DNA from: Buttiauxella gaviniae ATCC 51604
Lineage (GTDB): Bacteria; Pseudomonadota; Gammaproteobacteria; Enterobacterales; Enterobacteriaceae
NCBI RefSeq assembly: GCF_001654835.1
Contig: NZ_LXEP01000022.1
Coordinates: 1-64,000, forward strand
Length of the DNA: 64,000 bases
Direction: 5' to 3'
Of the stretch, positions 3,036 to 32,540 are shown piece by piece. Position 1 is the stretch's first letter. Every line of letters starts with the position of its first letter. The translations under genes and the position numbers were made by a program. The notes beneath the pieces are model-generated. The model saw nothing but the letters and a program-made list of their open reading frames with translations. It did not search any database and was not told where the DNA came from.

Positions 3036-3390
3036 CGCTCTTTCCTCTTGGGTGAACTTTTATCCTGTCAGCTTGCTAATAGTGCATAAAGAGGTGAAAT
3101 AATGTTCTTCGTAATGCCTTCCAGACTTTCGGGTGAGATTTCTTTTTTGAAAATAATTCTGCGATGAGCTTCGCAAAAGATTTATTTCTGGAAGATTTTT
3201 TGGCAATAGAGATAAGAAATCGCACTATATGAAATATTTTCACTATCTCGTTATTTGCTGAAAACAAATAGTTTTTCTGCCAGCCAATTTTTTCAGCCTC
3301 TGTTTCAATATAAAAAATTCTTGTGCTTTTAACTGACTCTGTGATAACTCTGTAGGTATTACTTCGAACAAGTAGACAGAATAAACAAAC
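3036..3390. other. AT-rich yifB-ilvL intergenic region
   Basis: 355 bp without a convincing gene. It is much richer in A+T than its flanks (3080-3330 especially) and must hold the ilvL promoter and the upstream activating (IHF-type) region known for ilvGMEDA in E. coli. I did not find a consensus promoter. The best pair is TTAACT (3329-3334) with TAGGTA (3353-3358), at a long 18-bp spacing. A 63-codon minus-strand reading frame (3076-3267) is lysine-rich but matches nothing I know. Confidence 0.5.
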
Positions 3391-3489
3391 ATGAAAGCCC
3401 TTCTACGAGTGATTAGCCTGGTCGTGATTAGCGTGGTGGTGATTATTATCCCACCGTGCGGGGCTGCACTTGGAGAAAGAAAGGCTTAA
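3391..3489 (+). CDS. ilvL: ilvGMEDA leader peptide
   Basis: A 32-codon leader peptide that starts MKALLRVISLVVIS and contains 15 Leu/Val/Ile residues. It matches E. coli IlvL apart from the second residue (Thr to Lys) and the C-terminus (GERKA instead of GRGKA). Ribosome stalling at the Ile/Val/Leu codons when charged tRNAs are scarce prevents formation of the downstream terminator (3512-3543) and lets transcription enter the operon. It is too short to have another role. Confidence 0.97.
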   Translation: MKALLRVISLVVISVVVIIIPPCGAALGERKA

Positions 3490-3511
3490 AAATCAAGCCT
3501 GAATCGAAAAG

Positions 3512-3543
3512 AACCCCCGCACCGAAAGGTCCGGGGGTTTTTT
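3512..3543 (+). terminator. ilvGMEDA attenuator terminator
   Basis: A GC-rich hairpin, AACCCCCGCACC-GAAA-GGTCCGGGGGTT, followed by T6. It lies 22 nt after the ilvL stop codon, which is the classical attenuator position. Confidence 0.95.
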
Positions 3544-3575
3544 GTTGGGCAAAGAAACTCGGAGAGAAACAGATG

Positions 3576-3626
3576 ATGCGTTACAGAATAAAATGCTGTT
3601 TCTCCGATAATGCGACGGGGAACTAA
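3576..3626 (+). CDS. ilvX: Small protein IlvX
   Basis: A 16-codon [19 protein letters not shown], that ends 2 nt before the ilvG start. E. coli IlvX (recalled as MNNSTKFCFSRFRTGN) has the same length and position, and shares the CFS core and the TGN end. A GGAG at 3561-3564 is a ribosome-binding site; the ATG at 3573 just upstream gives a 17-aa form and fits the RBS spacing better. The tight spacing suggests translational coupling to ilvG. The function of IlvX is unknown. Confidence 0.75.
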
Positions 3627-17830: not shown

Positions 17831-17948
17831 AGTGTGGTAGAATATCAGCTAACTATTGCTTTACGAAAGCGTATCCGGTGAAATAAAGTCAACCTTAAGT
17901 TGGTTAATGCTACACCAACAAGGTAGACATAATCCTGCGGAGTAGAAC

Positions 17949-18278
17949 ATGAGCGATAAAATTATTCACCTGACTGACGACAGTTTCGACACGGACGTGC
18001 TAAAAGCTGATGGGCTGATCCTGGTTGATTTCTGGGCAGAGTGGTGTGGTCCATGCAAGATGATCGCCCCGATTCTTGATGAAATCGCTGATGAATATCA
18101 GGGCAATCTGACCGTTGCTAAACTGAATATCGATCAGAACCCGGGCACTGCACCAAAATATGGTATCCGTGGTATCCCAACTCTGTTGCTGTTCAAGAAC
18201 GGTGAAGTGGCTGCGACCAAAGTTGGCGCGCTGTCCAAAGGCCAGTTAAAAGAGTTCCTCGACGCTAATCTGGCATAA
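17949..18278 (+). CDS. trxA: Thioredoxin 1
   Basis: A 109-aa cytoplasmic thioredoxin with active site WCGPC (C33 and C36) and the cis-proline in [11 protein letters not shown]. It reduces ribonucleotide reductase, methionine sulfoxide reductase and PAPS reductase. It starts [20 protein letters not shown], with CGGAG upstream. It is divergent from rhlB and upstream of rho, as in E. coli. Confidence 0.98.
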
Positions 18279-31581: not shown

Positions 31582-31658
31582 CGGCGAGTAGCGCAGCTTG
31601 GTAGCGCAACTGGTTTGGGACCAGTGGGTCGGAGGTTCGAATCCTCTCTCGCCGACCA
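31582..31658 (+). tRNA. proM: tRNA-Pro (TGG anticodon)
   Basis: 77 nt. The acceptor stem is CGGCGAG/CTCGCCG, the anticodon loop TTTGGGA gives TGG, and CCA is encoded at 31656-31658. Its last 19 nt are repeated at 31789-31807 and 31938-31956. Confidence 0.97.
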
Positions 31659-31665
31659 AATTTAG

Positions 31666-31694
31666 AAAAGACCAACCCTCGGGTTGGTCTTTTT
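31666..31694 (+). terminator. Terminator 1 of the proM repeat
   Basis: Stem AAGACCAACC/GGTTGGTCTT with T5, 8 nt downstream of the proM CCA. It should end most tRNA operon transcripts. Confidence 0.9.
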
Positions 31695-31814
31695 GCATCT
31701 GTAGTTTGAAGAGGATGAGAATCTCCGCAGGAGGTTTGAGCCGAGCGAAGCGAGACAACGTTGCTTTAGCAACGACCCGTAGGGGAATAATCCTCTCTCG
31801 CCGACCAAATTTAG

Positions 31815-31843
31815 AAAAAGCCAACCTTCGGGTTGGCTTTTTT
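31815..31843 (+). terminator. Terminator 2 of the proM repeat
   Basis: AAGCCAACC-TTCG-GGTTGGCTT with T6. Compared with terminator 1, two adjacent stem pairs have changed on both sides (GA to AG, TC to CT), so pairing is preserved. Confidence 0.9.
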
Positions 31844-31964
31844 GCATCTGTAGTTTGAAGAGGATGAGAATCTCCGAAGGAGGTTTGAGCCGAGCGAAGC
31901 GAGACAACGTTGCTTTAGCAGCGGCCCGTAGGGGAATAATCCTCTCTCGCCGACCAATTTCAAG

Positions 31965-31994
31965 AAAGCCTAACCGGCAAGGTTGGGCTTTTTT
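31965..31994 (+). terminator. Terminator 3 of the proM repeat
   Basis: AAAGCCTAACC-GGCAA-GGTTGGGCTTTTTT. The stem is kept (one T-G pair) although the loop and linker differ from units 1 and 2. Confidence 0.85.
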
Positions 31995-32337: not shown

Positions 32338-32540
32338 GTAGATGCTCATTCCACTTCTTATGTTTGCTTAGGCTTCATAAACCCAGGAATGACGCAGAGC
32401 CGATTACGGTGCTTATCGTCCACCGACAGATGTCGTCTTTCAGACCTCATCCAACACCATGGACATAACGTTGAGTGAAGCACCACTTAGTTGTCTTAAA
32501 GACCTGTTTTGACACCTGCCAATTGGCAGGTGTTTTTTTT
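32338..32540 (+). ncRNA. glmZ: sRNA GlmZ
   Basis: A Hfq- and RapZ-dependent sRNA that activates translation of glmS (glucosamine-6-phosphate synthase). The 5' end GTAGATGCTCATTCCA, the central GAATGACGCAGAGCCG and GGTGCTTATCGTCCAC segments, and the GTTGAGTGAAGCACC region followed by AGACCTGTTTT match E. coli GlmZ. It ends in a perfect terminator, ACACCTGCC-AATT-GGCAGGTGT plus T8 (32512-32540). Its position between the proM operon and hemY is as in E. coli. The 5' end is set by homology. Confidence 0.93.

Follow-up and report, generated by a model that had tools for sequence, protein, structure and literature searches.

Directly 3' of proM there are two tandem 149-bp units followed by a third tRNA tail. 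By sequence, this array is a pair of tandem tRNA-linked repeats (TLR, RtT in Rfam). Over many hosts, alignments of such units show that both the antisense strands and the tail follow the sequence of the host tRNA, and what the comparison adds to the known TLR family is, it suggests, that the inner sequence follows the adjoining tRNA. That antisense and tail follow the host through changes of the T-stem makes the question of TLR function a simple mutational test; the function that we discuss below is one that we infer.

The array behind proM

The array lies within a window of 64,000 nucleotides, which is the whole stretch of DNA analysed here. Its parts are the following.

31582-31658, +: proM, tRNA-Pro(TGG), the host tRNA (ARAGORN); its last 19 nt are the copied tail
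31666-31693, +: terminator T1, a 13-bp stem AAAAGACCAACCC/GGGTTGGTCTTTT and then a T run (inverted repeat)
31694-31807, +: TLR/RtT unit 1, structured part (RF00391 73.4 bits; R1 82.3 bits, R1 being built with unit 1)
31710-31716, +: antisense strand a of unit 1, AGAGGAT, complementary to the T-stem 3' strand ATCCTCT (helix P1)
31719-31726, +: antisense strand b of unit 1, GAATCTCC, which faces GGAGGTTC (helix P2)
31730-31739, +: decoy of unit 1, a split sense copy of the 5' side of the host T-arm, GGAGGTTTGA (host GGAGGTTCGA)
31740-31788, +: core hairpins of unit 1, GAGCGAAGCGAG, ACGTTGC..GCAACG and CCCGTAGGG, between the halves of the T-arm copy
31789-31807, +: tail 1, copy of tRNA-Pro nt 58-76 with CCA
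31815-31842, +: terminator T2, whose stem differs from that of T1 by two compensatory changes, among others (inverted repeat; unit comparison)
31843-31956, +: TLR/RtT unit 2, structured part (RF00391 72 bits; R1 85.2 bits)
31859-31865, 31868-31875, 31879-31888 and 31938-31956, +: strand a, strand b, decoy and tail of unit 2
31938-31956, +: tail 2, copy of tRNA-Pro nt 58-76 with CCA
31965-31991, +: T3, terminator-like, AAAGCCTAACC/GGTTGGGCTTT with one G-U pair, the array end (sequence reading; partial repeat families)

The initial annotation had the last 19 nt of proM recurring twice at 149-bp steps, and three observations bear this out: TRF gives a period of 149 bp with 2.1 copies over 31640-31957 (95% matches, no indels), a repeat search finds copies from 31640 and 31789 (149 nt, 95%) and a third 38-nt piece from 31938 (84%), and the tail AATCCTCTCTCGCCGACCA is identical at 31640-31658, which is proM's own end, 31789-31807 and 31938-31956. 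The terminator that was said to follow each tail copy is found as well, as the inverted repeats T1 and T2 and as the terminator-like T3, which is read from the sequence.

The two units, reported to differ at about 8 of 149 positions, differ at exactly 8. Four of these make up the two compensatory pair changes that had been seen in the terminator stem (31670/31689 and 31671/31688 in T1 against 31819/31838 and 31820/31837 in T2), and a fifth, C to T at 31678, breaks the innermost terminator pair and widens the loop. The accompanying proposal of a selected terminator hairpin holds only in part: two pairs in one comparison speak for it, while the broader covariation sits in two other helices. The predicted fold of 31640-31957 is 3.9 s.d. 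lower than those of shuffles, with 0 of 100 shuffles as low.

The array is genuine, as first described. An assembly artefact has next to no probability, because the units are non-identical, differing at 8 positions, and because the proM locus of G011, a single-contig genome of the same genus, also has two units. Immediately 5' stand Arg-His-Leu-Pro tRNA genes, in the order of argX-hisR-leuT-proM of K-12. About 350 bp 3' of the array, at window positions 32338-32539 (+), is the GlmZ sRNA gene (RF00083, 196 bits); elsewhere in the window Rfam matches the Rev39 5' UTR and the trxA thermometer (3316-3613 and 17891-17978, +).

With 73.4 and 72.0 bits (E-values 1.5e-12 and 3.4e-12), units 1 and 2 both exceed the curated gathering cut-off of RF00391, 45 bits. 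The early comparison with the RTT repeat of tyrT was therefore right. The closing helix of RtT is present by sequence as AGAGGAT/ATCCTCT, and pairing between 5' strand and tail is itself a feature of the Rfam RtT consensus. TLRs are defined by 3' 18-19 bp identical to the end of the upstream tRNA or rRNA (PMC8144298); in both units the identity extends over 19 nt, and the location in a tRNA or rRNA operon is matched by the position behind the Arg-His-Leu-Pro genes. Since the RtT/TLR kind is already known, the proM copy is a further member and not a new family.

The description of TLRs dates from 1978 (Egan and Landy 1978; Rudd 1999, as given in PMC8144298), and in E. coli K-12 there are 22 of them at ten loci, with function stated there as not known (PMC8144298). 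An early claim about the tyrT repeat was later retracted (PMC8144298). Further, rtT-like elements are listed among BIMEs (PMC2965389).

A literature search found no paper on an RtT repeat at proM, so the novelty claimed for this locus stands to that extent; however, the kind is known, and in E. coli RefSeq labels an RtT sRNA behind another tRNA-Pro, as seen in two records in which it lies between eptB and dppA. This RtT label also stands on the ten top-ranking rows of the E. coli match list, and 5375 of 5426 E. coli genomes match the query somewhere, tRNA genes included.

Both rttR of the E. coli tyrT operon (RF00391) and the proM array consist of tandem units with a tRNA 3' end at each end, and their core hairpins are related, with covariance matches above the cut-off. 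In contrast, the tyrT units are 178 bp and the proM units 149 bp long, and at proM a terminator-like site stands before each unit. Using a crude hairpin-plus-T rule for such a site before the antisense of the first unit, it is present in 24/24 first units of Pro, 27/28 of Ser(GGA), 23/56 of Lys and 0/26 of Tyr. The TLRs of E. coli K-12 resemble the proM units in having 3' 18-19 bp identical to the upstream tRNA or 5S end, but at K-12 proM no tail copy or repeat was found as far as aslB. Another likeness is to rrA, rrB and rrF, which lie behind 5S rRNA, between two terminators and with a tail copy (PMC8144298); they differ in that the host is 5S rRNA, and the E. coli rrnB TLR is unmatched by R1 at E 0.01.

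Tail and antisense strands across hosts

A search with RF00391 gave matches in 29 of 60 genomes, and R1, a model built here with unit 1 of the window included, gave matches in 31 of 148 genomes of the order; both counts include the window's own genome. Regions around matches listed (98 + 40) were analysed. Defining a unit by the last 14 nt of a tRNA recurring downstream, we obtained 177 distinct units among the matches listed, of which 142 were also matched to R1 rows; the rest are putative RtT units, and a few, for instance L183, may be something else.

The 177 units come from eight families and stand behind tRNA-Tyr, Pro (three anticodons), Lys, Ser (three anticodons), Arg, Glu, Gln and Val. 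Whether other tRNAs carry the repeat was a point raised at the outset, and they do: the hosts amount to 12 tRNA species. The window genome alone has eight RtT-like places at E <= 1, four of them above the Rfam cut-off, behind Lys, Pro, Ser and possibly Arg genes; the weakest, near Arg and Ser genes, has no tail copy.

Repeats of tRNA-Ala tails (4 + 1) have another sequence and were left out. Behind tRNA-Ala(GGC) in family f16 the Ala tails recur at spacings of 84 and 200 bp at one locus (L129) and 86 bp at another (L160). Their sequence is seemingly unrelated to RtT, and they are possibly a second kind of tail-bearing repeat.

Nearly all tRNA species of the comparative set share one unit plan. 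Its first element (a) is antisense to the T-stem 3' strand and to part of the acceptor; a junction, often ATGA, leads on to GAA and the antisense of the T-stem 5' strand (b). After a short loop, a decoy ending in TTCGA, a hairpin core and host nt 58/59-76 with CCA follow. As we parse it, a unit is an inverted copy of the host T-arm and then a direct copy whose T-loop is replaced by the core. Both antisense strands have two places to pair: ATCCTCT, the partner of strand a, is present in the proM T-stem and in unit 1's own tail, and GGAGGTTC, which faces strand b, occurs in the host T-arm and in the unit's own copy. The plan fails to parse 33 of the 177 units, 17 of these Lys. The tRNA-Arg units in L055, L101 and L190 are reduced; those of L055 and L190 keep strand a, with b and decoy absent.

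In 114 of 132 distinct units the tail reproduces the host's 3' end exactly over 18 or 19 nt. Counted back from that end, none of the last 17 positions exceeds 2% mismatch to the host, but the 19th has 49% and the 20th 100%, a sharp stop that places the boundary of the copy at T-loop nt 58/59. Of the 177 units, whose hosts come in 17 variants at tail nt 69-73, 172 have the host's own letters there.

The antisense fits its own host T-stem at 8.56 of 10 stem positions, against 7.08 when hosts are permuted among 16 T-stem classes, and 0 of 20,000 permutations does as well. Taken singly, 92 of the 177 units fit their own class better than any other, 53 fit another class equally well and 32 (25 Lys) fit another class better. 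An antisense score of at least 9 is reached by 118 of 177 units and by 11 of 116 control tRNA downstreams without a tail copy, some of which include the next tRNA. An earlier score over the whole T-arm was uninformative for Pro(TGG), ranking 0/17 first, because Pro(CGG) has the same stem; it was replaced by the T-stem classes.

Individual units illustrate this dependency. Three tRNA-Ser units (L082, L092, L106) have similar cores and the T-stems GGGGG, CGGGG and AAGGG; apart from one G-G mismatch in L092 and L106, their antisense has altered in step with the stem. Tracking is also seen in the Tyr units L127 and L154 (T-stem GCTGG). It is less clean in L161, a Lys unit with the stem GAGCG and the antisense strands AAGCG and CGCTA, whose own class is not top-scoring.

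For the alignment A1, 59 representatives were taken from the 110 units kept of 132, the other 22 having a low antisense score or odd length. From it RNAalifold recovers P1 and P2 without prompting. In these helices 139 cells have changed on both sides (52 in shuffles) and 87.6% of cells are paired (at most 54.6% when slid). All 500 shuffles and the slides stay below the values observed for paired cells, double-change cells, pair types and the covariation score; related rows inflate such counts. The number of pairs with any both-side change, 11, is no better than in shuffles (9.8; 119/500 as high). Nor is there a G-U signature of selection on RNA: the non-Watson-Crick departures have no excess of G-U over mismatch-making transitions. 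We did not meet the antisense rule in the TLR literature surveyed; it may be in print in Rudd 1999, Egan and Landy 1978 or Bosl and Kersten.

The cores bear on the age of the repeats. Within the window's family (Pro, Lys, Ser, Tyr) the nearest core belongs to the same host tRNA in another genome for 121 of 122 testable units, 18 of the 177 units having been lost in core extraction. The repeats look inherited in place, and the matching to the host therefore looks like co-evolution and not fresh insertion.

Roughly 118 arrays hold a single unit, 21 hold two, 4 hold three and 2 hold four. These sizes are lower bounds, since for part of the set a later unit identical to an earlier one was not counted. 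Conservation in relatives, a point that the initial annotation had raised, is found at proM in the same-genus genomes G001, G002, G004, G008 and G010, with one unit each, and G011, with two as in the window. In G003, of the same genus, the proM TLR (at a contig end) has a decayed tail and a weakened antisense, an apparent loss in progress. The counts for G001 and G003 are lower bounds because the contigs end just behind the proM locus. Since the module was not found at K-12 proM and is decayed in G003, it is dispensable at this tRNA.

Proposed read-through and processing, and rival readings

The reading that we prefer, and to which we give an even chance, is that the TLR array is transcribed by read-through and processed at each tail. 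Units would be transcribed through T1 (and T2), and strand a would pair with the tail so that the terminal helix of the host is rebuilt with its CCA end. This helix would mimic the host end, and the host's own 3'-processing machinery would therefore cut at each tail as at the tRNA; structured RNAs of about 149 nt would be released and the read-through transcripts tidied. The same complementarity would also allow strand exchange between unit and tRNA.

We prefer read-through and processing because it has been mapped for rrB and because strand a can pair with the tail. The 5S-linked rrB of E. coli is an RNA of the type that the initial annotation had proposed, a read-through product with a host-like end on either side; it is 173 nt long, with its 5' end 3 nt after 5S and its 3' end 3 nt after the tail copy, as mapped by S1 from a plasmid; its T1 stops 87%, and the authors suggest that the tail is recognised by RNase E (PMC8144298). 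RT-PCR has also detected two RNAs of the RtT family, encoded close to tRNA genes, in Actinobacillus pleuropneumoniae (PMC4986893). Some units of our set stand inside tRNA operons (Tyr-TLR-Gly, Lys-TLR-Val) and are, by this position, co-transcribed.

What may count against processing is that P1 is predicted to be weak in unit 1 alone, where its pair probabilities are 0.12-0.15 and it falls outside the MFE; it is within the MFE of unit 2 alone. The 11 against 9.8 double-change pairs, the absent G-U excess, the 32 of 177 units that fit another class better and the dispensability of the module at proM are further points against it, and with them we still hold the balance to be about level. Processing does not explain why strand b fits the host over the unit's own copy in most hosts. 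If only processing holds, TLRs would still be a clear RNA module that co-evolves with many different host RNAs.

Quasi-palindromes are corrected by template switching. Concerted evolution at the level of DNA, with recombination or slippage homogenising the tails and template-switch correction homogenising the antisense, could produce the matching without any function. It would account for the tail identity beyond P1 and for the absent G-U signature, and it agrees with array sizes ranging from 1 to 4. However, the antisense centre reads TGA-GAA or a near variant in most units and not the exact T-loop complement, which argues against plain copying, because copying would mend a non-complementary centre; many Lys units, which have the exact complement, are the exception. 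Core elements are also conserved across families, and copying leaves retention behind the same tRNAs unexplained. We consider this account rather unlikely.

A small mobile element or the remnant of a phage attachment site, with the tail as target-site duplication, is very improbable. The att cores do resemble 18-19 bp direct repeats of tRNA 3' ends, and the boundary at T-loop nt 58/59 would suit such an origin, but the clustering of cores with their host tRNA disfavours it. As the cores follow the host tRNA across genomes there has been no recent jumping, and no recent spread within a genome is seen in the window's family, where all but one of the 122 cores are nearest the same host tRNA elsewhere. 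The longest ORF listed across the array has 92 aa. Among the best 10 of 302 matching phage-collection records, coverage of the query is 80% in 3 and about 20% in seven; the 3 are two records of Salmonella chromosomes and a 7.4-kb record without annotation that is named Salmonella phage S.Kent 1-2-1. A base-pairing sRNA or sponge is hardly more probable. Its precedent is the leuZ 3' external transcribed spacer, like the proM array a source of RNA from a tRNA operon trailer; the passages on it in PMC8144298 mention pairing with RyhB and RybB, in contrast to proM neither a tail copy nor an antisense arm. E. coli rrB binds Hfq and CsrA, but the scores of a CsrA-sponge prediction are <0.01 for 19 tRNA-linked TLRs (PMC8144298).

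Strand exchange in predicted folds

Strand b can be asked which partner it follows where host and decoy differ. With fixed columns in the 59 representatives, b fits the host only at 36, both at 6, the decoy only at 1 and neither at 1 of 44 differing positions. In a model-fitted alignment that is biased to decoy pairing (244 rows, 52 unmapped, 142 distinct units used), b fits the host only at 71/98 and the decoy only at 12/98. Most host-only positions are supplied by nt 49 (28/36 with fixed columns, 51/71 model-fitted). Per T-stem class, 8 lean to the host and 3 to the decoy in the model-fitted alignment, the latter being Lys (3 host to 8 decoy), Gln and one Ser class. L160 has a tRNA-Glu unit whose decoy has lost its copy of the T-stem 5' strand, and b still matches the host there. 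A first count over 140 positions gave 111 for the host only, 0 for the decoy only, 14 for both and 15 for neither or other. It was replaced, as a parse that maximises host pairing had biased it and had dropped the 33 unparsed units.

In the predicted MFE of proM with unit 1, which has -97.2 kcal/mol, the tRNA and the repeat have swapped strands; folded separately, the two reach -31.4 and -52.2. Strands are swapped in this way in 125 of 148 predicted folds of a tRNA with its first unit, where the unit replaces the tRNA's own 3' half (Pro 24/24, Tyr 26/26, Ser 25/30, Lys 41/56); among the others the native acceptor is kept in 5, and 18 fold in some other way. With the unit of another host the swap is found in only 4/148. 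On average the MFE lies 8.1 kcal/mol below the native-constrained fold for own units and 2.0 for foreign units. Absolute energies are not trustworthy, since in the foreign-unit controls RNAfold finds the native acceptor in only 64/148; the meaningful result of these predictions is the contrast between own and foreign unit.

These folds point to a bolder reading than processing, one that would explain more of the comparative data and draws on predicted folds, and that we put forward tentatively, as a possibility we would not bet on. In a read-through precursor the antisense of the unit would capture the T-arm and 3' acceptor strand of the tRNA, enclosing the terminator hairpin in precursors that have such a hairpin. 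The unit tail would then pair with the tRNA 5' acceptor strand. The outcome would be a CCA-ended, non-standard fold, an off or rescue state for read-through precursors. TLRs might then be, again with some doubt, strand-exchange modules for stable RNAs (tRNA, 5S), whose own 3' half is locked away while the repeat tail substitutes for it.

Strand exchange would account for the tail identity at nt 69-73, which lies beyond the counted P1 pairs (these stop at nt 68), and for the preference of b for the host (36 to 1 of 44; 71 to 12 of 98). Nearest-neighbour folding, however, ignores tRNA tertiary structure and folding order, and its baseline is poor, with the native acceptor missed in more than half of the foreign-unit controls and an MFE that is even there below the native-constrained fold. 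The 23 own precursors that do not swap, the weight of nt 49 among host-only positions and the three classes that lean to the decoy also count against it. If strand exchange is true, TLRs would act in cis on the precursors of tRNA and rRNA, as a general device for switching or rescue that co-evolves with each host RNA. A repeat family known since 1978, and in 2021 still listed as having no function, would then have a role.

Strand exchange is also what the folding predicts for E. coli rrnB 5S with its TLR, at -149.7 against -137.6 apart. This swap fold concerns the rrnB terminator pair, which is widely used on plasmids (PMC8144298). In E. coli K-12 rrnB (L209) the 5S 3' end, T1 and the TLR antisense are predicted to form one long, near-continuous hairpin.
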